A stretch of 64,000 nt of DNA from Cohnella sp. AR92 (GTDB taxonomy: Bacteria; Bacillota; Bacilli; Paenibacillales; Paenibacillaceae), in contig NZ_RZJR01000004.1 in the NCBI RefSeq assembly GCF_003990975.1, positions 82,625 through 146,624 on the forward strand. The letters are read 5' to 3'. Below, piece by piece: positions 54,199 to 64,000 of the stretch. Each line of letters starts with the position of its first letter. Position 1 is the first letter of the stretch. Below the pieces are notes generated by a model. The model ran no database searches and had not been told where the DNA came from. It was given only the letters and a program-made list of their open reading frames with translations. The translations under genes were made by a program, and so were the position numbers.

Positions 54199-54310
54199 GG
54201 GTCGGTCAGATTTTTCGCCGGATGGATGTCAAACGCCTACTTCCTGCATAGGATGTTCGATCCCGGGAATCCTTGATATTACGGGGTTCTGTTCGAAGCG
54301 AGAGCGGAGT

Positions 54311-54330
54311 TGTTGCAAATTTGTTGCAAA
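54311..54330. repeat. Direct repeat near the integrase, candidate attachment or arm site
   Basis: tgttgcaaa occurs at 54311 and 54322, an 11-base spacing (one helical turn), between the pheA terminator and the integrase stop. It may be the attL core or integrase arm sites. The matching attR would be outside the window. Confidence 0.4.
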
Positions 54331-54399
54331 AAATGTTCAAATTGCACGCGAAGTGAAGACAATTCCTTGTAAGTATGCTTCGTGTTTGAGAGGTGCAGT

Positions 54400-55620
54400 T
54401 CATTGCTGTATAGCTGTTTTAGGATTGAAGATGAGCGCCTCCAGCTTATCCGCAGCGGATTGGTCAGCAGAACGGAGAGCGTGCCCATATATATTCATCG
54501 TCGTCGTTATGTTGCCGTGACCGAGCCGTTCGGAGATAATCTTCGCATGAACGCCCTGGCTAATCAGAAGCGTTGCAGACGTGTGTCGCAGATCGTGGAA
54601 TCGGATTCGTCGGAGTCCATTACCTTCAAGGAACAGCCGGAACCACTGATTCGGACTATGATGGTGAAACGGTGTTCCGTCTGCATTGCTGAAAACGAAG
54701 TTCCATTCTCGGCCTAGCTTGTCCTTACCGTTCCATGCGTCGCCCAGCTTGTCCCGTTCCTTCGCTCGATAAGCGTAGTATTCACGCAACTCCTCAAGCA
54801 CAGAGGCGGATAGCGCAAGTTTGCGTTTTCCGTTCTTTGTTTTTGGTTCTTTAATGATGATCTCGCCTTTGCTGGCGTGGACAAGCGTTTGGGAGACCTC
54901 AATAATACCGTTCTTCCAATCGATATGCTTCCATTCCAGGCCCAACAATTCGCCTCGTCTCATGCCTGTCATTAGCGCTATGGTTATCATCATGCGCCAG
55001 TGATACGGCTCGCTCTGGGCCGCTCTGAGCATACGGTGAACTTCGTGTTCATCGAAGGGGTGGAACTCTTGATGACTCACCTTGGGCTTTTTAATGGTGA
55101 CGACAGGGCTGTTCTTGATGATCCGCCATTCCACGGCCCGATTAAAGATGTTCATTAGGATACGACGGTTCATATCGATCGTGCTCGAGGATAGGCCACC
55201 TGTTCCCTTTACCTTCTTTTCGCGCTCGAGTTTGTCCAGGTAATTGACGATGTTAAGAGGCTTGATGTCCTCTAACTTCATACCGCCGAACTCCGGTATG
55301 AGACGTGTCTTAAGCTGCGCATCGTAGGCTGCCAAAGACTTAAATGCCAGATGCTTCACTGCATATTTCTGCCGCCATTCCTCTATGAACGCTCCGAACG
55401 TCATTTTCTCCGGTTTGATGTATTCCCCAGATTCCACTTCTTCCCGGAACTTCACGTATTCGGCGTCTAAATAGTCCTGCAGCCGCTTCTTTGTCTTCAA
55501 TAAGGCCGGATCATCAACTGTAACCGTCTTGAACCTACGGATGTATTTGCCGTTCGCGTCCTTGCCGGCCATAACTGTGAGCAACCATGAGTTTTCTCCA
55601 CGCTGGCGTATGCTAGCCAT
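54400..55620 (-). CDS. int: Tyrosine recombinase / site-specific integrase
   Basis: Catalyses integration and excision of the element. The 406-residue protein has an N-terminal AP2-like arm-binding region (about 1-50), a SAM-like core-binding domain (about 72-170) and the catalytic domain (about 185-395). The active residues are Arg221 (TGMRRGELL), His342 and Arg345 (RFHDLRHTSATLL), His368 (ERLGHGN) and Tyr378 (MNIYGHA). All are intact, so it is probably functional. It is at the left end next to the host pheA, transcribed towards the junction, and starts just after the repressor stop. Confidence 0.95.
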   Translation of the reverse strand: MASIRQRGENSWLLTVMAGKDANGKYIRRFKTVTVDDPALLKTKKRLQDYLDAEYVKFREEVESGEYIKPEKMTFGAFIEEWRQKYAVKHLAFKSLAAYDAQLKTRLIPEFGGMKLEDIKPLNIVNYLDKLEREKKVKGTGGLSSSTIDMNRRILMNIFNRAVEWRIIKNSPVVTIKKPKVSHQEFHPFDEHEVHRMLRAAQSEPYHWRMMITIALMTGMRRGELLGLEWKHIDWKNGIIEVSQTLVHASKGEIIIKEPKTKNGKRKLALSASVLEELREYYAYRAKERDKLGDAWNGKDKLGREWNFVFSNADGTPFHHHSPNQWFRLFLEGNGLRRIRFHDLRHTSATLLISQGVHAKIISERLGHGNITTTMNIYGHALRSADQSAADKLEALIFNPKTAIQQ

Positions 55621-55623
55621 ACA

Positions 55624-56319
55624 TCATCCCTCCTCGTGTTCGATCTGATCGTTGTACATCAAGTCTAGATAGGCAGCAATGAGTTTCTTTTCCTTTTCAG
55701 AAATACTTATTCCCTTATAATTTGGTTCGACTTCGGGGCTGAGCATAAGATCCAAGCTTTTATTAACGCTAATCTCCGCTTTTGCTATTTCGTGTAGGTT
55801 TTGTAACGCTTCAAAAACGACTTCTTTTACGGATTCATTTTCATCATTATCAGAGTTCCAATTAAGCATAGTTAGGAGTTTATAGAAGTTAATTGGATCT
55901 AGCTCAAAAACATCTCCAGTAAGAACATTTCTTATGCTGTCTCTAATTTCATCCATATCATCAGTGAATCTGGTATAAAACCGATCTTCATTAACCATTG
56001 CAATTTCGATTCCGCCCCATAACCTTAAAACTTCTGCATTTAGGTTTGAGGCGCCATATGCCATTTTAGCTAGCGTCAACCTTCCGATCATATCAGCATA
56101 TCCCGCACGAAGTAGAAGTGTAGAGTTCGGCACCCCCAACGGGCCAGCTAATTTATTAAGAATCTCAATTGACGGAATACCCCTGTTTCCATTCTCAATG
56201 TTAGACAAATAAGGTTGCGATACATCCGATGCCTTTGCTAGCTCAACAAGCGTTAACTTCTGTTCCTTCCTCAACGATCGGACGTATTCTCCGAATTCAA
56301 TAGCTTTATCGTTTTCCAA
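55624..56319 (-). CDS. CI/Stl-like XRE-family repressor
   Basis: The N-terminal helix-turn-helix (about residues 5-60; LTLVELAKASDVSQPYLSNI) is of the lambda repressor type. The remaining 170 residues are helical, without the LexA-type Ser-Lys protease motif, so control by a partner protein rather than self-cleavage is likely, as with Stl of staphylococcal islands (inference). An ATG at 56337 is part of a GGAGGAG sequence; the likelier start is the TTG at 56319, giving 231 residues. It is transcribed with int, and a divergent palindrome-rich region precedes it. Confidence 0.88.
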   Translation of the reverse strand: MENDKAIEFGEYVRSLRKEQKLTLVELAKASDVSQPYLSNIENGNRGIPSIEILNKLAGPLGVPNSTLLLRAGYADMIGRLTLAKMAYGASNLNAEVLRLWGGIEIAMVNEDRFYTRFTDDMDEIRDSIRNVLTGDVFELDPINFYKLLTMLNWNSDNDENESVKEVVFEALQNLHEIAKAEISVNKSLDLMLSPEVEPNYKGISISEKEKKLIAAYLDLMYNDQIEHEEG

Positions 56320-56400
56320 TGCAACGCGCTCCTCCATAAAAAAATATCTCTATTGGAATAAATTTATCATACCCTATTGAATTTGAGAATATACCGTGGT

Positions 56401-56452
56401 AATATTTCGTTAGAAATATTTCTAAAGTAATAAACGAATATTGTGATATTTC
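56401..56452. promoter_or_regulatory. Probable repressor operators in the divergent control region
   Basis: The gap 56320-56615 separates the repressor from the rightward genes. It contains aatatttc-gtta-gaaatatt (56401-56420, perfect 8-bp arms), the overlapping palindrome agaaatatttct (56412-56423), and gaatattgtgatatttc (56436-56452). A further gaatattt is at 56457. These repeated gaaatatt half-sites fit a lambda-like genetic switch. Confidence 0.65.
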
Positions 56453-56615
56453 AACAGAATATTTGGAAAGATCATCAATGGTCGTACTTATGTGAGCACT
56501 GTACGCGGGAACTGGATTTCATTGTCTTTACTAGCTAAGGAATGATCATCTAATCTTATGCTCCTTGAAAACTGAATCCGGCAAAGTGAATAAATCATCA
56601 AGAGGGGGATGTTGT

Positions 56616-56909
56616 ATGAGCACACAATTTCATCAACTGGCTGCAAAAATGGATGAAGCAATAGTTGCTGTTGCTGCAAGGGTGGATGCACTGAAGGATA
56701 TTGATGTGAAATTCTCGCAACTGAGAGTAGACATGGATTCAGCTGTTATAAAGGGCATGGAGAAATTCGCCTACCGTGAACATCACTTAGAAGTGCGGGT
56801 GCTATCGGAACTTATGTTTTATGTCATGAAGGAATTACAAAGGAATATTGAGGTCGCTGAGAAACTCAGCCAACAGTTCTTTAAAGATACGAGTGCAGAA
56901 GCATCATGA
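56616..56909 (+). CDS. Small element protein of unknown function
   Basis: A 97-residue, mainly helical protein with possible coiled-coil stretches (about residues 10-40 and 65-90). It is the first rightward gene after the switch region, starting at an ATG behind AGAGGGGGA. I do not recognise the family. The next gene overlaps it by four bases (ATGA). Its position suggests an early regulatory role. Confidence 0.7.
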   Translation: MSTQFHQLAAKMDEAIVAVAARVDALKDIDVKFSQLRVDMDSAVIKGMEKFAYREHHLEVRVLSELMFYVMKELQRNIEVAEKLSQQFFKDTSAEAS

Positions 56910-57151
56910 ATGCTATGAACTTGACCAGAAAAGCGTTGTGGTCTGCTTCCAATGAGGTTGCAGACCACTTAGTACAAATAGCTCGGGAGCACACCAGAAT
57001 CGCTCTTGAGATCAGCAATGGCCGTAAGCGTAGAACCTTATCGGTTGAAGAGTATTCGAAGCTCATGGACCGCTTATCCTCGCTTAGATCGGAGCGGGCT
57101 AGAATCATAATGAATCTTGAGGAGGATATAACGAATGGAAAAACCAATTAA
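56906..57151 (+). CDS. Small element protein of unknown function
   Basis: An 81-residue charged protein, predicted helical, rich in Arg, Glu and Ser. It overlaps the gene before it by four bases and the AlpA-like gene after it by 17 bases, so the three are translated as a coupled early block. No family is recognised. Confidence 0.65.
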   Translation: MNAMNLTRKALWSASNEVADHLVQIAREHTRIALEISNGRKRRTLSVEEYSKLMDRLSSLRSERARIIMNLEEDITNGKTN

Positions 57152-57329
57152 GTTGACGATCTCTGTAAGTGAAGTAGCCGAAATGGTAGGCGTATCAACG
57201 GGGACTATTTATACGATGGCGAGGGAGAACCAGTTGCCTCATGTTCGAGTTCGTGGTCGTATCCTATTCTACCGGGACAACATCGAAAAATGGCTGCGCG
57301 GTGAACTCCAGACGGCTGTAAACTCTTAA
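57135..57329 (+). CDS. AlpA/excisionase-like HTH protein
   Basis: A 64-residue MerR-type helix-turn-helix protein (HTH_17) with ISVSEVAEMVGVSTGTIYTM and the wing RGRILFYRDNIEKWLRGEL. Such proteins act as excisionases or as activators (AlpA) in satellites and prophages. A strong GAGGAGG sequence lies before its ATG. It is the third rightward gene, a common position for xis or alpA in PICI-like islands. The gap 57330-57530 after it shows no gene. Confidence 0.85.
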   Translation: MEKPIKLTISVSEVAEMVGVSTGTIYTMARENQLPHVRVRGRILFYRDNIEKWLRGELQTAVNS

Positions 57330-57530
57330 ACCCTCAAGGGGGTCATTTTAACTGATATCCTTCCTATTATGACCTCATTTCTAATGATCCCACAAGTGGT
57401 TGGTGACCTAGTTTCAATCGAGGGCATGCATCAAACGCTGTGGGTTGAAACCACAGCATCAAGTAAATCTGAGAACGCAATATTTCGTTTTCTAAAACTT
57501 TGGAAACCGACCAGTTAGGGGGTAGAGAAG

Positions 57531-57599
57531 TGAAAAGGAACGATATGTTTGGCGAGGCAAATATAAGAGTGGTGGAGATGAATGGAAGGGTGGATTAAG
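57531..57599 (+). CDS. Possible 22-residue leader peptide
   Basis: A short frame starts at a GTG after AGGGGGTAGAGAA and ends 18 bases inside the replication gene. It may couple translation of the next gene. It is too short to judge by composition. Confidence 0.25.
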
Positions 57600-58436
57600 C
57601 TTCACCGGAAAATACGTGCTAATCCGATATTCAACGACATCGAGTTGCTTCGGCTTTGGATGATATGCCTTCTTGAGGCAACCCATAAGGAGCGGGACCA
57701 GCTCGTAGGGCGCCAGGTTGTCCGGCTGATGCCGGGAGAATTTGTGACGGGAAGATTCTCTCTTCAATCGATGTACAACAACGGATTAAGCCGTGAGCAA
57801 CAAAAAAGCCCCACTACGGTGTGGAGGTGGCTTGAGACATTAGAAAACGGTGAATTTCTGAGCATCAAATCGAGCAACAAATTCTCAGTGGTATCAATAC
57901 TTAACTGGCATAAATACCAAAATGATGAGCAGCAAAATGAGCAACAAGTGAGCAACAAACGAGCAGCAAGTGAGCAACAAGTGAGCACAAACAAGAATGT
58001 AAAGAATTATAAGAATGAAAAGAATGATGTTACTACTGCCGGTGACGACCTAGAAAAAGTTTTCCGATCCTATTGCGAGATCCATGGTAAAGCAGAGCAC
58101 CATGTTGCTAATCAAATGTACGACATGGAACAAGTTCTCAATAAGGGGATACCGGCTGATTTTATCATCTCAGTCATGAGAATGAAATACGAAAAGAAAG
58201 TAAGCGAGGGCGGGACGGTTCACTCATTCAATTATTACAACGATGCTATCACCCGGGAGTGGGAAGGGAGGAACAAGATTGAAGAGCTTAAAGAGCGGAC
58301 TCAAGGAATTCAATCTGGAGGATCTACGCCAACGCGCCCAGAGGATTCAATCACTGGAGGCCAACTCGGATGGATCAGAAGAGGAAAAGTCGTACCGATG
58401 CCAAACATGCAAGGACGAGATGGGTTACCTGGTTAG
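57582..58436 (+). CDS. Replication-organiser (DnaD-like) protein
   Basis: A 284-residue protein. The N-terminal winged-helix domain (about 1-115; GWIKLHRKIRANPIFNDIEL) is of the phage replisome-organiser and DnaD type. A Gln/Asn/Glu-rich linker with repeated EQQVS-like units spans about 115-145, and a C-terminal DnaB_2-like domain (about 155-230) contains KYEKKVSEGGTVHSFNYYND. It would bind the element origin and recruit the loader encoded next. The next gene's start lies 158 bases inside this frame. Confidence 0.85.
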   Translation: MEGWIKLHRKIRANPIFNDIELLRLWMICLLEATHKERDQLVGRQVVRLMPGEFVTGRFSLQSMYNNGLSREQQKSPTTVWRWLETLENGEFLSIKSSNKFSVVSILNWHKYQNDEQQNEQQVSNKRAASEQQVSTNKNVKNYKNEKNDVTTAGDDLEKVFRSYCEIHGKAEHHVANQMYDMEQVLNKGIPADFIISVMRMKYEKKVSEGGTVHSFNYYNDAITREWEGRNKIEELKERTQGIQSGGSTPTRPEDSITGGQLGWIRRGKVVPMPNMQGRDGLPG

Positions 58437-59079
58437 AGACGAGGAAGGCGTTGAGAAATGGCGTATGTGCGTGGACTGCCGGGACTGGAGGAAAGCCGAA
58501 ACCGTAATGAAGCAAAGCAAGATCACGGAAGAGTTCATGAGCAAGACGTTTAAGGGATTCCAGCATGAGACTCGGCCGCAAATCGTTCAGGACGCTTATC
58601 AAGCTGCTTATGAGTACGCCAAAGAGTTTCCAAACATCCGTAACAACCGCTTCAACAGTCTCGCCCTTCTCGGGGACCCGGGATGTGGCAAAACACATCT
58701 TTGTATGGCCGTAGCTAATCACCTAATGCGTAAGGGCGTTCCGGTAATCTATTTTCCATGGGTTGAGGGATTCAATGAAATGAAGAACAATCTCGCAGAT
58801 TTAGAGACCCGGATCGGACTTATGCAACGGATTGATGTTCTGTATATCGACGACATGTGGAAGGGCCGCAAGACGCCGACTGATTTCCAGATTGAGCAAA
58901 CATTTGCGGTCGTTAACTACCGGTACATGAACAAGAAACCAATTCTCGTATCCTCCGAATTCGACGTTGATGCAATGTGTAAGTTTGACATGGCGATTGG
59001 ATCACGCATATTCGAGATGGCTCGTGAATTCTGCGTTGTCGTCCACGGTGATGCAAAGCAGGTCAACTACAGGCTATAA
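58279..59079 (+). CDS. DnaC-like helicase loader ATPase
   Basis: A 266-residue AAA+ protein that loads the host replicative helicase. It has an N-terminal zinc-finger-like set of four cysteines (CQTCKDEMGY and MCVDC), the Walker A motif GDPGCGKTH (Lys138), and the Walker B motif VLYIDDMW. The start is taken as the TTG at 58279, six bases after GGGAGGA; an ATG at 58243 lacks a ribosome-binding site. It overlaps the replication-organiser gene by 158 bases in a different frame. The two form the element's replication module. Confidence 0.9.
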   Translation: MKSLKSGLKEFNLEDLRQRAQRIQSLEANSDGSEEEKSYRCQTCKDEMGYLVRDEEGVEKWRMCVDCRDWRKAETVMKQSKITEEFMSKTFKGFQHETRPQIVQDAYQAAYEYAKEFPNIRNNRFNSLALLGDPGCGKTHLCMAVANHLMRKGVPVIYFPWVEGFNEMKNNLADLETRIGLMQRIDVLYIDDMWKGRKTPTDFQIEQTFAVVNYRYMNKKPILVSSEFDVDAMCKFDMAIGSRIFEMAREFCVVVHGDAKQVNYRL

Positions 59080-59098
59080 ACCAAGACAGGCGGTGCCT

Positions 59099-59311
59099 AT
59101 GCGAAAGAAAAGAGAACCGAAGGTCCATACCATCAAAATGGCAGGCGAAGTCATATTGATTGAGAGCGAGTATACAAAGGCCGACAGCATCGAGTTACTG
59201 ATTAAGTCGCTCGCCGTGCATTATCGGGACAAGAAGCCAGAGAGATTCGATAACTTGGTGCAAATATTGAATTTCATCAACGAAGATAAAAAGCAAGGCG
59301 CTCGCTCCTGA
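59099..59311 (+). CDS. Small element protein of unknown function
   Basis: A 70-residue basic protein starting MRKKREPKVHTIKM, 19 bases after the helicase-loader stop. The ribosome-binding site is weak (GGCGGTG). No family is recognised. Confidence 0.6.
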   Translation: MRKKREPKVHTIKMAGEVILIESEYTKADSIELLIKSLAVHYRDKKPERFDNLVQILNFINEDKKQGARS

Positions 59312-59453
59312 ATTGATCGTCACAACCAAATCGCAAGAAAATCGATAAATTTACAACCAGACTGCATTTGCCGTGATTCCCAACAAGATGGGGAGAGTGT
59401 CAAAATCGACGCGGATTATTCCAAAAATTATTCCATGGAGAGGAGGAGCGGGG

Positions 59454-59780
59454 ATGCAAGTGGTTACTTTAAATCATTTATATCCAACTCGGCATAGCAA
59501 ACCAATGAAGGCATTGTTGCTCGAAGAGGATTTAGTCATTACAAGCGATGGGTTCTTAACGTCGTTGGTCAGAGTGAACCCAACCGAACAGGAAGGGGTA
59601 TATGTCCAGGCGGAAGCGGGTAACTTCATCATCGTTGCAAAGGGTGGTCGTACCCTTGCTTCTCTGGAGAAAATTGTCCGACAGTTAAAGACTATGGACG
59701 CTTATACGTTGCTGTACAAGCACTATGACATCCAGGACAATGTATTCTTCATAAACTACCCATCAAAGCCAATATACTGA
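59454..59780 (+). CDS. Small element protein of unknown function
   Basis: A 108-residue protein, mixed alpha/beta in appearance, starting at an ATG behind a strong GAGGAGGAG. The longer frame from 59373 overlaps this site and is rejected. It is the last gene before the palindrome-rich gap and the capsid genes. Its position suggests a regulatory or packaging-control role, but nothing in its sequence shows one. Confidence 0.65.
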   Translation: MQVVTLNHLYPTRHSKPMKALLLEEDLVITSDGFLTSLVRVNPTEQEGVYVQAEAGNFIIVAKGGRTLASLEKIVRQLKTMDAYTLLYKHYDIQDNVFFINYPSKPIY

Positions 59781-59796
59781 CGGAGCGGTAGATGAT

Positions 59797-59916
59797 GTAG
59801 TTTCAAACTACCCCATTGCTTTAGTTATAAGTACGCTCATCAAATCTGGCGAGCGTAACACCCTCGATTCAAACGAGGGTGAGAGGAGTACAAGGACTTC
59901 AATAGTTATAAACTAT
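59797..59916. promoter_or_regulatory. Cluster of four palindromes before the capsid module
   Basis: In order: gtagttt-c-aaactac (59797-59811); tacgctc / gagcgta (59832-59857); caccctcg / cgagggtg (59859-59881, with a 7-base loop); and atagtt-ata-aactat (59902-59916). The motifs tagttataa and aaactaY recur through the gap. It is probably a late promoter control region, a terminator-like element or a DNA-binding cluster; which of these is unclear. Confidence 0.6.
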
Positions 59917-59981
59917 AAAAAATACAATGTAGATAGATACAAACTATTAATGATAAAATGAAATCAGTAGGAGTTGATAGG

Positions 59982-61190
59982 ATGGCTGGATTATTAAGCC
60001 GAATCTTTGGACGAAGGCGAGAGCAGCAGATGACCAGTGTAGATGTCATGAGTGGCGGCCCCGCGATCTTCACGCCATTCAGTGGTGACGCTTATGAGAG
60101 CGACATCTATCGGGCAGCGGTGGATGCGATCGCCAGAAATGCGGCGAAGCTTCGAGGGACCCACGTTGTCTCTTCAGAGCAACGGAGGAAATCGGGGGAA
60201 AGCAGCTTGAATTATCTGCTGCAAATTCGACCGAATCCATACATGACGGCTTATGACCTGATCTATAAGCTTGTCACGCACTATTACCTTCATAGCAATG
60301 CATTCGCCTATCTCCAGAAGGACGAGCGCGGATATCTTGTCGGTATCTGGCCGATCCGGCCCCAGAGCATGGAATACGTCGTGGATGGCGCTGGAACACT
60401 CTATTGCGCATTCATTCTAGCTGGCGGGCAGAAGTTCACGCTTCCGTTCAGCGAAGTGTTAACCATTCGCCGGTTCTTCAACTCTAATGACTTACTAGGC
60501 GAAGCGAACACCGCAATCCTTCCGACTCTCGACCTGGCACATACGCAAAGCGAGGGCATGGAGAACGCTATCAAGGCAGGGGCGACGATTCGCGGGCTGC
60601 TGAAATTCAACCAGGTCATAGCACCGGACAAGCTTAAAGCCGAAAAGGAAGCGTTTATCAATGATTACCTGACGGTGAGCAACAGCGGGGGCATTGCCGC
60701 GATTGACACCAAGGCCGATTATATCCCGCTGGAAATGAATCCCGCTGCCATTGACGAGAAACAGCTCAGCGCGGTCAAGACCAAGATTTACGAATACTTG
60801 GGAATCAGCGAGAAGATCGTCAACAGCACCTATTCGGAAGACGAATGGGCCGCATTCTATGAGAGTGTGATCGAACCGCTGGCCGTGCAATTCTCTCTAG
60901 AGCTGACGGACAAGCTATTCACGCAGCGAGAGAAGGCGTTTGGTAACTCGATCATCTTCGAGGCTAACCGGCTCCAATTTGCTAGTAACACCACCAAGAC
61001 GAACATCCTTAAGGAACTAATGCCGCTTGGGTTATTTACCATCAACCAGGCGTTAGACATATTGAACCTTCCACCGGTTGAGGACGGCGACCGAAGGCTA
61101 CAGACCTTAAATGTGGTCAACGCGGACAAAGCCGATCAATATCAGCTCAAAGATGACATAACGGGTCGTGAGGGCACCGGCAATGAGTAA
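59982..61190 (+). CDS. Phage portal protein (HK97 type)
   Basis: Forms the dodecameric ring at one capsid vertex through which DNA enters. The 402-residue protein has GLLSRIFGRRREQQ at the N-terminus, then YRAAVDAIARNAAKLRG and PNPYMTAYDLIYKLVTHYYL, characteristic of the family. The stem and clip helices lie in the second half. The start is the ATG at 59982 after TAGGAG; an ATG at 59958 has no site. It is the first structural gene, with no terminase upstream, which is unusual. Confidence 0.93.
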   Translation: MAGLLSRIFGRRREQQMTSVDVMSGGPAIFTPFSGDAYESDIYRAAVDAIARNAAKLRGTHVVSSEQRRKSGESSLNYLLQIRPNPYMTAYDLIYKLVTHYYLHSNAFAYLQKDERGYLVGIWPIRPQSMEYVVDGAGTLYCAFILAGGQKFTLPFSEVLTIRRFFNSNDLLGEANTAILPTLDLAHTQSEGMENAIKAGATIRGLLKFNQVIAPDKLKAEKEAFINDYLTVSNSGGIAAIDTKADYIPLEMNPAAIDEKQLSAVKTKIYEYLGISEKIVNSTYSEDEWAAFYESVIEPLAVQFSLELTDKLFTQREKAFGNSIIFEANRLQFASNTTKTNILKELMPLGLFTINQALDILNLPPVEDGDRRLQTLNVVNADKADQYQLKDDITGREGTGNE

Positions 61191-61287
61191 ACTGGATGAC
61201 ATCATTCGAGAAATGGAAGCTGAGCTAAACGAAAGCGAGGAGATCCAAGATGAAAGAACTGCGAATAGCAGAACTGAGGGCCGCTGA
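61183..61287 (+). CDS. Possible 34-residue overlapping protein
   Basis: A frame starting MSKLDDIIREMEAELNESEE overlaps the portal stop by eight bases and the prohead protease start by 38 bases. It is acidic and helical. GAGGG lies seven bases before its ATG. It may be a coupling peptide or a real small gene. Confidence 0.35.
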   Translation: MSKLDDIIREMEAELNESEEIQDERTANSRTEGR

Positions 61288-61828
61288 TCCGGCAGGAGAA
61301 AGCACCCTCATTCTCACTGGTAGGCCGATAGTGTACGATCAGCCGACCACGATAAAAGATGTTTTTGGGACGTACACGGAAATCATACGGGCCGGGGCTT
61401 TGGAAGGCGCGGACTTATCCGACATTCGGTTGTTGTACAACCACGACATGAGCAAAGTACCTCTGGCCCGTACCCCAAGAACAATGCAATTTCAGGCAGA
61501 CCCGGCAGGGCTGACCATGACCGCAGATTTACCCGATACGGAGGAAGGCAGAAGCGTTTATACGGCAGTAAAGCGCGGCGACCTCTCCGGCATGTCATTC
61601 GCGTTCAAAGTTCCACAAGGCGGCAGCCACTTCGACGCGAAGGCGAACACTCGAACCATCACCAAAATCGAAAAAGTATATGAGTTCAGTATTACGCCAT
61701 TCCCGGCCTATCCTCAAACGAGCATTGAGGCCAGAGCAGCCATTGAAGGGACTTGGGCAAAGCTTAAAGATCCCGAACGATCGGAAGCTCGAATCAAGAT
61801 CAACCAAATTCTAAAGAGGAGCGTGTAA
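61250..61828 (+). CDS. HK97-family prohead protease
   Basis: Serine protease that cleaves the scaffold part of the capsid protein during maturation. The 192-residue protein has the His motif LLYNHDMSKVPLAR and the Ser motif GDLSGMSFAFKV, then EFSITPFPAYPQTSIEAR, the conserved end of the family. It starts at an ATG behind GAGGAGATC. It lies between portal and capsid in the standard order. Confidence 0.94.
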   Translation: MKELRIAELRAADPAGESTLILTGRPIVYDQPTTIKDVFGTYTEIIRAGALEGADLSDIRLLYNHDMSKVPLARTPRTMQFQADPAGLTMTADLPDTEEGRSVYTAVKRGDLSGMSFAFKVPQGGSHFDAKANTRTITKIEKVYEFSITPFPAYPQTSIEARAAIEGTWAKLKDPERSEARIKINQILKRSV

Positions 61829-61834
61829 CACGCC

Positions 61835-63061
61835 ATGAAATTCAAAACCGTAGCAGAAGCATTTAACCATTATCGCAACCACAGCATTACCGACATCGAG
61901 AAGCGAGCAGCAGAGATTGGGCAACTCATCGATAGCGACCCGAACGCTGAAATTGCCTCTCTGAACATCGAACTGGACGGCCTAAAGGAAGCTAAGGCGA
62001 ACGTCGAACAACGCAGCGCGGGAGCCGGTGCAGGATTTAACCCAATCACGGGGATGGGTTTTCAACAACAAGCTCAACAAGATCCGGAAGGTGATGTGTT
62101 CGCCTCCACTGAATACCGCAGCGCCTTCTTCAAGACGTTACTGGGTCAGAAGCTCTCCGATACCGAATCCCGCACGTACAAGCGCGCTATGGAGCTTGTA
62201 GGCACTGAGCGCCGTGCAGATGCGTTCAACACGACGACCGACAGTGCTGCGGTCCTACCGACAACTACGTTGAACGAGATCATTAGCAAGGCCCGTAAGA
62301 TGGGCGGCCTGATCAGCGTCTGCCGCAACTTCAACATTCCAACGAATCTGCGCGTCCCGATCGGCACACCAACGAGTAAAGCTGCTTGGCACGTTGAGGG
62401 CGCGGCCGTCGATAGCGAGAAAGCAACGACAGCCTATGTCTCCTTCGCGGGTTACGAGCTGTTGAAGATCATGTCCATGAGCGCGACCGTTCGCCGCATG
62501 AGCATTTCGGCATTCGAAGCATACATCATCGACGAACTGAGCAACAGCGTCATGGAAGCAATCGCAGACGCTCTGGTAAACGGAAGCGGGAGTGGGCAAG
62601 GAACCGGCGTACTAACCGGCATCACGTGGGACGCGACCAACAGCTTCACGTATGCTAGCGGGCAGATCCCGAAGTATACGGACTTCACGAAGATGATGGG
62701 GTTGCTGAAGCGGGGATACGGCGCCGGGGCACGCTTTGCCATGAGCAACGCAACGCTCTATAACAATGTTTACAGCATTGTGGACGCCAACGACCGTCCG
62801 ATCTTCATCACTGACCCGAAGAACGAGGAAATCGGCTACATTCTGGGCAAGGCGGTCACCATCGACGACAACATCGAAGATGGAGTCATTGTTCTGGGTA
62901 ACTTCAGTTACATGGGATACAACATCCCACAAGGCATCCTAATCGAGATGTCCAGAGAATCGAGCTTTAAGAACGGCCTTATCGATTACCGCGCCTTGGC
63001 GATCGCAGATACTAAACCTTTAGTAAGCGAAGCGTTCATCAAGTTGTCGGAAGGCGCCTAA
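61835..63061 (+). CDS. HK97-family major capsid protein
   Basis: A 408-residue shell subunit. The N-terminal delta region (about 1-60) is a charged coiled coil, expected to be cut off by the protease, followed by a Gln/Ala/Gly-rich linker. The capsid fold starts near residue 110; STTYVSFAGYELL-like (here TAYVSFAGYELLKIMSMSAT) and the P-domain helix segment DELSNSVMEAIADALVNGSG are typical. Having its own complete capsid set separates this element from satellites that only remodel a helper capsid. Confidence 0.95.
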   Translation: MKFKTVAEAFNHYRNHSITDIEKRAAEIGQLIDSDPNAEIASLNIELDGLKEAKANVEQRSAGAGAGFNPITGMGFQQQAQQDPEGDVFASTEYRSAFFKTLLGQKLSDTESRTYKRAMELVGTERRADAFNTTTDSAAVLPTTTLNEIISKARKMGGLISVCRNFNIPTNLRVPIGTPTSKAAWHVEGAAVDSEKATTAYVSFAGYELLKIMSMSATVRRMSISAFEAYIIDELSNSVMEAIADALVNGSGSGQGTGVLTGITWDATNSFTYASGQIPKYTDFTKMMGLLKRGYGAGARFAMSNATLYNNVYSIVDANDRPIFITDPKNEEIGYILGKAVTIDDNIEDGVIVLGNFSYMGYNIPQGILIEMSRESSFKNGLIDYRALAIADTKPLVSEAFIKLSEGA

Positions 63062-63124
63062 TATCTAACCAAGCAAGGGGGATCAGCGGACACGCTGGTT
63101 CCCTTTTCATAAGGAGAAATCGAC

Positions 63125-63403
63125 ATGCTGATAACAATCGAGGAAGCCAGGGACGCTCTTAGGATCGACGGCACGGACAACGACAGCATAATTCAGGCGC
63201 TGCTCGATTCCATTCCGTCATACCTGGAAGTTAGCACTGGAAAGTCATGGGACACGGAACCGGTGCATCCGTTAGCTCAGACCATAACGAAATTCATTCT
63301 ACAGCTATGGTTCGATCCTCAAGGACCAGATAGCGAGCGGTTAAGGCGAACGATAGAAAGTCTATTTGTAGGGCTGACAGCGATCGGCAGGGCGTTAGAA
63401 TAA
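63125..63403 (+). CDS. Head-tail connector (gp6-like)
   Basis: A 92-residue helical protein of the phage gp6-like connector family (ITIEEARDALRIDGTDND at the start). It attaches beneath the portal in mature heads. It follows the capsid gene by 63 bases and overlaps the HNH gene by one base. It starts behind AAGGAGAAATCG. Confidence 0.88.
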   Translation: MLITIEEARDALRIDGTDNDSIIQALLDSIPSYLEVSTGKSWDTEPVHPLAQTITKFILQLWFDPQGPDSERLRRTIESLFVGLTAIGRALE

Positions 63404-63717
63404 TGGCCCAGGATTACGCGAAGGCATTCTACAAAAGCGCGGCATGGATAAAGTGCAGGAATGGATACATGGCAAGCAAGCACTATGTATGTGAGCGGTG
63501 TGGTGGGTTAGCAGAAATATGCCACCACAAAACGTACATCACTCCGCAGAACATCCATGATTCAAGCGTTACGTTAAGCTGGAGCAACCTCGAAGCGGTT
63601 TGCCGGACCTGTCACCAACATGAACACTATTCGAATACAGAGGTATGCGTTGAGGGGCTGACGTTTGATGCAAGCGGCAACTTTGTACGCATACCCCCGG
63701 GTGCACCATCATCGTGA
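63403..63717 (+). CDS. HNH endonuclease
   Basis: A 104-residue HNH nuclease. It has paired zinc cysteines CERCGG and CRTCHQH, the catalytic CHHKTYIT segment and WSNLEAVCRTCHQHEH. In phages that package from cos sites an HNH protein beside the terminase helps specific cleavage. Here it lies between the connector and a probable terS, downstream of the capsid genes. Confidence 0.92.
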   Translation: MAQDYAKAFYKSAAWIKCRNGYMASKHYVCERCGGLAEICHHKTYITPQNIHDSSVTLSWSNLEAVCRTCHQHEHYSNTEVCVEGLTFDASGNFVRIPPGAPSS

Positions 63718-63814
63718 CATCCGCTGGAGACCGAGTAGCCCCCTTTTTAAGCCCCTCCATGAGATTTCCTATAAAGGGTGGGTTAGTGACTATAAAAAGT
63801 AAAGGAGTGATTCC

Positions 63815-64000
63815 ATGAAATCGCATAATGTTGCGGACGTCTCCACGGAAATGAAGAAACTTAAAGCGAATATGAAGCAGATTCCGAAAGAACGCCAAGC
63901 GTTGGCGCAAAGTCTATTTAACGAGCTTGTATTCATGCAGAAGACCCTCTCGACGCTCAAGGAACAAGTCGAGGAAGAGGGGCCGACGGCCATGTTCAAG
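63815..64000 (+). CDS. Probable small terminase subunit (P27-like), 5' fragment
   Basis: The first 62 codons of a gene cut by the window edge. It starts MKSHNVADVSTEMKKLKANM after AAAGGAGTG, is helical and charged, and has the segment PKERQALAQSLFNELVFMQ. The position directly after the HNH gene is that of terS, and the sequence resembles P27-type small terminases, but the fragment is too short to be sure. Confidence 0.6.
   Translation, partial: MKSHNVADVSTEMKKLKANMKQIPKERQALAQSLFNELVFMQKTLSTLKEQVEEEGPTAMFK

Follow-up and report, generated by a model that had tools for sequence, protein, structure and literature searches.

A stretch of 64,000 nucleotides from Cohnella sp. AR92 (C6:82625-146624, contig NZ_RZJR01000004.1, of the 6.0-Mb genome G000 in 36 contigs; hereafter the window) ends inside an element that carries the genes to build and fill a phage head and hardly any for a tail. 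This raises the question of what kind of element it is and by which structures its particles would reach a cell. The element is very probably an integrated capsid-forming phage satellite resembling the capsid-forming phage-inducible chromosomal islands (cf-PICIs), a known kind that is found here in Cohnella. In their published descriptions, cf-PICIs are integrated, average about 14 kb, encode their own capsid, protease, portal, connectors, HNH protein and both terminases, and receive tails from a helper phage (PMC10690885, PMC10803314, PMC11389934). The element is likewise integrated, has its own head and packaging genes and shows no tail assembly genes, and its 14,720 bp (14.72 kb) from core to core fit that size; it differs in its host, in a DnaD/DnaC-like replication pair and in a cassette resembling the distal part of a phage tail, which sets it apart from the known cf-PICIs.

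Head genes, missing tail genes and the ends of the element

The HK97-type head and packaging set of the element (portal, protease, capsid, Ad1, HNH, TerS, TerL and Hc1) is complete and constrained. PHROG and Pfam scans placed on the plus strand a portal protein (59958..61190; PF04860, 3.4e-54; phrog_12, 1.8e-77), an S78 prohead protease (61250..61828; PF04586, 1.3e-30), an HK97-type major capsid protein (61835..63061; PF05065, 7.3e-34; phrog_10, 2.5e-49), the gp6-like head-tail adaptor Ad1 (63125..63403; phrog_40, 3.3e-12; PF05135, 6e-5), an HNH endonuclease of the packaging module (63403..63717; phrog_119, 2.7e-15; PF01844, 9.8e-6) and TerS (63815..64156, leaving the window at 64000), which was assigned from a weak match (phrog_2343, 1.5e-5) plus its position. 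Beyond the window, where coordinates are window equivalents (position in the fetched stretch L010 + 51975), follow TerL (64153-65793; phrog_9, 3.4e-160) and the head closure protein Hc1 (65808-66140; PF05521, 1.1e-17).

A sister element occupies the same site (pheA-ilvE / element / safA) in Cohnella xylanilytica DSM 25239 (G006). Its repressor and regulatory region differ from those of the window element, and the order of its head and packaging genes is identical. Portal, protease, capsid, Ad1, HNH, TerS and TerL are 81-94% identical between the two, with ratios of nonsynonymous to synonymous substitution rates (dN/dS) of 0.034-0.082, the synonymous sites of Ad1 and HNH being close to saturation; dnaD has a ratio of 0.37. 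Synonymous sites are saturated in Hc1, DUF771 and alpA, which yielded no ratio. Hc1, the tail-facing closure protein, is just 54% identical, a divergence that may reflect adjustment to different tails.

Tail and lysis genes were sought with five tape-measure queries, one tail-tube query and one endolysin query, for which a prophage resident in the same genome served as the positive control; none matched in the element. No lysis or tail-assembly family appeared in the PHROG and Pfam scans of its proteins, and neither baseplate nor holin was found from TerL to attR, where the open reading frames (ORFs) were both read and scanned. The hallmarks of a complete siphoprophage (tape measure, tail tube and lysis genes) are thus not found in the element. 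These genes, if they followed TerL, had been named in the initial annotation as marks of an ordinary or rearranged prophage, and its extension past 64 kb revealed instead TerL, Hc1, a small ORF (66151-66381), a fibre-like gene, a CuAO-like gene, a DUF771 gene (about 68330-68665), attR and safA. The observation that no lysis genes are seen held for the rest of the element as well; the expectation that a cf-PICI would lack tail genes was borne out for the tube, the tape measure and assembly genes and gave way at one distal tail-fibre-like gene. The attachment repeat ends the element 3.2 kb past TerL, and the 2.8 kb between Hc1 and attR are too small for a siphophage tail. Because genes for building and filling heads are present with nearly no tail genes, the element probably borrows its tails from another virus.

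The resident prophage, at about 9-30 kb of C6 and thus on the same contig, ~107 kb from the element, may be such a helper. It is HK97-type and siphophage-like and encodes, besides TerL, portal and capsid, a major tail protein, a tape measure, a distal protein of 637 aa, a CuAO-like protein and an endolysin. Prophage and element share an HK97-type head, a related distal fibre end and a CuAO-like partner; the prophage differs in possessing tail and endolysin genes, in its gene order (HNH-TerS-TerL-portal-capsid) and in its capsid, which is 32% identical to that of the element.

Both ends of the element were fixed by an exact direct repeat of 16 bp, which forms the attL core (54241..54256, plus strand) and, beyond the window, the attR core (68961-68976); a plus-strand search of the window, with up to one mismatch allowed, finds the core once. 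The element integrated site-specifically at this core between pheA and safA. Among 25 safA-flank loci drawn from 37 Cohnella genomes, 23 contain the core (two mismatches or fewer, both strands) and two (L185 and L188) do not. The pheA-safA site is occupied in the window genome (L167) and in C. xylanilytica (L173). At the empty site L169, the entire tested left flank (257 bases) joins the right flank at the core, and shorter left-flank matches stop at the core in L170, L171, L172, L176, L178, L179 and L182; in the remaining safA-flank loci, a left-flank match lies only farther from the core. A 13-bp repeat (54322 and 68827) was initially taken as the core and was dropped because the empty sites place the 16-bp repeat outside that pair. 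At the pheA-safA site of another genome (L168, G019), ~1 kb of unrelated DNA is followed by ~130 bp resembling the right end of the element, likely the remnant of an earlier element.

The left part of the element holds an integrase, a divergent repressor, an AlpA-like regulator and a replication module of the DnaD/DnaC-like type. On the minus strand are a tyrosine integrase of 406 aa (54400..55620; PF00589, 1.8e-30; phrog_1, 7.7e-78) and a CI/Stl-like helix-turn-helix repressor of 237 aa (55624..56337; HTH_3, 4.3e-15; phrog_8, 6.3e-13), which diverges from the early genes. On the plus strand follow a small early protein of unknown function (56613..56909; phrog_23736, 1.8e-18), another that has no PHROG family and a 35% identical relative in the C. 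xylanilytica element (56906..57151), an AlpA-like excisionase/regulator of 64 aa (57135..57329; HTH_17, 2.4e-13; phrog_66, 1.2e-10), a DnaD-like replication initiator/helicase loader (57582..58436; phrog_2514, 7.3e-42), a DnaC-like helicase loader ATPase (58279..59079; phrog_50, 8e-52) and a 111-aa protein with no PHROG or Pfam family (59445..59780). The initial annotation had described this layout, from the divergent integrase and repressor through the two-gene replication module to portal, protease, capsid, connector, HNH and terS; each gene was recovered by the scans, and that the set is more than a chance assembly is borne out by the strong profile matches, the sister at the same site and the low dN/dS of the seven head and packaging genes.

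We take the flanking genes, from reading their proteins rather than from scans, to be pheA on the left and safA (from 69037), bofC, ruvC, ruvA and ruvB on the right. In relatives, the core found here at 54241-54256 lies directly upstream of safA, and it somewhat resembles a SigE -10 element. Integration might part safA from its sporulation promoter.

Relatives of the capsid and their plasmid forms

Judged by identity, the capsid appears to group with those of small tail-less elements, apart from phage capsids, in a comparison that covered bacterial genomes, viral contigs, phage records and plasmids. At E 1e-40 it occurs in 2 of 37 Cohnella genomes, the window genome included. A collection with one genome per species yielded relatives, 50-92% identical, at nine loci, in Cohnella, Priestia, Alkalicoccus, Bacillus, Acetobacterium, two Lachnospiraceae, Sporomusa and a member of the Selenomonadaceae. 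Relatives were found in 36 viral contigs, at 50-100% identity (100% being the element's own copy) except for one at 24%; a second capsid as query found 50 viral contigs, and an alignment as query found 322 viral-contig stretches, the best 80 being retained. One contig among these best 80 of 322 exceeds 22 kb (L101, 53,046 bp), and it carries a related satellite followed by another integrase, that is, a satellite and a second element side by side. Among 50,697 phage records, 54 matched, with a best identity of 30.9%. Matches to PLSDB plasmids (27 records) were at most 28% identical, so this query revealed no plasmid form in that collection.

The family set comprised 133 loci (L017-L151 minus two matches of 21-24%) and the window element, giving 134 rows, many of whose contigs are fragments. 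In 73 rows, all six genes for portal, protease, capsid, HNH, TerS and TerL could be assigned on the plus strand, and they stood in this order in every such row, in one case as a circular rotation; the 73 rows represent 69 distinct capsids and include both the window element and its database copy. The placement of packaging genes after the capsid, to which the initial annotation had drawn attention, is shared by all 73 of these rows, unlike the order of the resident prophage. Together with the repeats and empty sites at the ends and the failure to find the expected genes of an ordinary prophage, the apparent grouping of the capsid with small tail-less elements supports the likely cf-PICI assignment made in that annotation.

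Some relatives apparently exist as plasmids. ParA occurs without a large integrase in 34 of the 134 rows (26 distinct capsids in the 28 of these rows with a capsid called) and an integrase without ParA in 43; one row has both (L024, whose ParA falls outside the matching 14.9-kb contig L059), and 56, many of them incomplete, have neither. Terminal repeats of 20-127 bases were found in eleven rows, ten of which are 13.6-14.8 kb long and encode ParA and no integrase (L020/L030, which are one element, L023, L036, L045, L053, L058, L070, L073 and L082); the eleventh (L096, 20 bases) has an integrase. Besides ParA, for which the match is strong in L045 (phrog_164, 5.1e-56; PF13614, 1.5e-52), these circular relatives encode in most cases a small partner protein, plus a Rep-like protein and the head and packaging genes. 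A tyrosine recombinase of ~185 aa lies near HNH and TerS in 8 of the 34 ParA rows. The named hosts are a Bacillus ectoiniformans isolate (L020) and a Lachnospiraceae assembly (L023), both Bacillota, the other rows being viral contigs. A quick tree built from the TerL of 95 rows requires two changes of the ParA label, also if only strongly supported branches are trusted, and the Bacillus element falls within the integrated ones.

The ParA relatives on circular contigs therefore appear to be satellite-plasmids of the plan described for the Vibrio satellite-plasmids named cf-PISPs, published in April 2026, of which the authors found none outside Vibrio (PMC13230959). According to that report, TG54 of Vibrio crassostreae is capsid-forming and tail-less and has ParA, Rep and a distinct tyrosine recombinase and no integrase (PMC13230959); the ParA relatives share this plan and their two named hosts are Bacillota. 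The window element itself, with its integrase and attachment sites, is integrated, whereas a cf-PISP is extrachromosomal with ParA/Rep and without an integrase.

The fibre cassette

The cassette past Hc1 consists of a 430-aa fibre-like protein, NTN-fibre (66401-67693), and a CuAO-like protein of 178 aa (67727-68263). It seems to be of a phage-tail kind that satellites carry too. In PHROGs, the 430-aa protein matches phrog_32308 (2.6e-28), a family of unknown function, with weak matches to a tail family (9e-5) and to a tail/host-specificity family (0.001). From residue 214 to residue 429, it aligns with the end of the 637-aa protein of the resident prophage (32% identity, 241 columns, 4e-22), which in turn matches families annotated as tail protein (4.8e-39) and as host range and adsorption protein (3.2e-17), and the CuAO-like protein aligns with the product of the gene that follows in the prophage (30%, 1e-10). 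A related distal fibre end is also present in Paenibacillus phage PG1 (47% identity over 31% of the query), which, with two records, was the sole phage with that fibre end among the 50,697 phage records. The satellite protein lacks the N-terminal part of the prophage protein, which is likely the tail anchor, and has instead a domain of ~210 aa (NTN). In C. xylanilytica, the element encodes a related, free-standing NTN domain of 200 aa beside a 186-aa protein that we read as the fibre end, though PHROGs call its family (phrog_4311) a minor head protein. From these alignments, the 430-aa protein may be a receptor-binding part borne by the satellite.

The NTN domain was found in 26 of 295 Paenibacillaceae genomes, a count that includes the source genomes of the profile; four viral-contig scans returned no relative of the fibre-type protein (versions of G081, G153, G327 and C. 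xylanilytica). Its surroundings were examined at 20 further places and in G081 and G094 (C9). A CuAO-like gene adjoins NTN in 9 of the 20 further places, and three (L236, L242 and L243) contain a tape measure; L242 and L243 have the CuAO-like gene too, with the cassette directly beside the tape measure. Because HK97-type head profiles found no match in these three stretches, they are termed simply phage-derived. The fibre/CuAO pair recurs in three Paenibacillaceae islands (G081, G094 and G327/L231) with integrase, repressor, AlpA-like and replication genes. TerL, portal, capsid and tape measure were not found in these islands, in which other head types were not profiled gene by gene; L231 gave a weak protease-like match and encodes a phrog_4311 protein of 238 aa that resembles the one in C. 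xylanilytica. The G081 island is related to the window element in its integrase (62% identical), AlpA (48%) and the 111-aa ORF (48%).

Other places hold different arrangements. A long form of 852-1012 aa that begins with the NTN domain is present in L229, L232, L233, L234 and L235, in four of which an integrase-like ORF is near; no head or tail genes were found in the fetched stretches of these five. In L237, L244 and L246, the NTN domain lies beside a coiled-coil-like protein, a neck-like protein (L244) or a capsid protein of another family (L237), and these are perhaps further satellite types.

The NTN domain perhaps has a proteasome-type fold, to which it is not firmly assigned. The free-standing C. 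xylanilytica protein scores 32.5 bits against the proteasome family PF00227 (cut-off 22.4). Against PDB sequences, phmmer matched this protein to proteasome chains at E 0.3, and a profile of seven NTN domains returned ATP synthase first (0.098) and a proteasome chain next (0.16). We keep the idea open because the seven aligned domains share a Ser or Thr after the start Met and an invariant Asp and Lys.

Weighing the alternatives and what the element may mean

Several observations weigh against the interpretation of the element as a cf-PICI-like satellite or of its cassette as a fibre. TerL stands closer to phage proteins than the capsid does, being 54.4% identical to that of an unannotated 22.5-kb faecal phage contig and 52.5% to that of Caldibacillus phage CBP1. 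A protein of the primase/helicase cluster is present in 88 of the 134 family rows, as opposed to the DnaD/DnaC-like pair of the window element. One family member, the Sporomusa element, has a tape measure, which the five tape-measure queries matched in its two records (L024 and L059) and in no other of the 133 loci. The 430-aa protein has no Pfam match, and its AlphaFold model, made of the protein alone, had a pLDDT (predicted local distance difference test) of 34 and was not used. An hhalign comparison of NTN with HslV gave a probability of 3% (E 0.014; four control families, 0.3-1.7%), the extra rows in it having been trimmed on a pattern requiring Ser/Thr and given a Met, for which reason they are not counted as evidence.

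The two tape-measure records share a layout: L024 (Sporomusa) and L059 (a viral record) encode a tape measure of 970 aa, with no TerL or HNH of the capsid family called. This Sporomusa element may connect satellites with phages, or it may be a hybrid. Unlabelled proteins of at least 170 aa were listed on 65 contigs of 11.4-17 kb; nine were scanned, and one, in L059, was the tape measure. Such a relative is what might be expected if the window element were an ordinary small or rearranged phage with its tail genes elsewhere or unrecognised, a reading that we consider the least probable: attachment repeats and empty sites fix both ends, and the short interval from Hc1 to attR, the ORFs of which were read, leaves too little room for a siphophage tail. 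A decaying prophage remnant from which tail and lysis genes were deleted would account for the ordinary HK97-type head genes and for the resemblance of the cassette to the tail end of the resident prophage. We reject this as very improbable as well, given the same gene order in all 73 six-gene rows (69 distinct capsids), the tape measure confined among 133 loci to the Sporomusa element (two records), a same-site sister with seven genes under constraint and the existence of circular relatives of 13.6-14.8 kb. A tailocin was ruled out because heads and terminase are present and a tail is absent.

For the cassette, the choice is closer. Instead of binding receptors, the NTN-fibre/CuAO pair could block tail assembly by the helper, act in cell-surface conversion or be cargo, an alternative that we regard as somewhat improbable and still substantial. 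Satellites interfere with their helpers, the CuAO-like protein appears in our reading to be secreted or membrane-anchored, and several chromosomal NTN places have no head or tail gene in the fetched stretch. Yet the C-terminal half of the 430-aa protein matches the distal part of a prophage tail/host range and adsorption protein, and in L242 and L243 the cassette directly adjoins a tape measure.

If the element is a cf-PICI-like satellite with a fibre of its own, a helper siphophage would derepress it, and it would excise and replicate by its DnaD/DnaC-like proteins. It would then build small heads and fill them with its own terminase, which would probably cut at cos together with the HNH protein; Ad1 and Hc1 would join these heads to helper-made tails, and the helper would supply lysis too. 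The satellite fibre protein would be placed on the borrowed tail tip, and the satellite, beside the helper, would thereby help decide which cells are entered.

A fibre gene has been reported in another satellite. MulchRoom and MiniFlayer, satellites of Streptomyces phages, have their own capsid and packaging genes, as does the window element, and MiniFlayer also has a tail-fibre gene; according to their authors, they have no significant homology to PICIs or cf-PICIs, and the MiniFlayer fibres attach to the neck of the helper, not to the host cell, in a satellite with no lysogeny module (PMC10690885). The open-access literature, to which the search was confined with subscription papers outside it, yielded no report of a satellite with a host-binding tail part of this kind.

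More broadly, Paenibacillaceae phage satellites, with or without heads, might fit their own fibre cassette to helper tails and so set or change the cells entered, and the capsid-forming satellites of Bacillota might live either integrated or as ParA plasmids, a plasmid state that, if the TerL tree is read most simply, would have originated independently two or more times; we advance this combined proposal tentatively, at slightly below even confidence. The ParA relatives suggest that satellite-plasmids exist beyond Vibrio, and the family offers a natural set for comparing one head module in its integrated and its plasmid state. By using the tails of different phages, tail-stealing satellites are reported to widen their host range (PMC13345588); if the present interpretation is true, a receptor-binding part of the satellite's own would add a second route to a wider host range.

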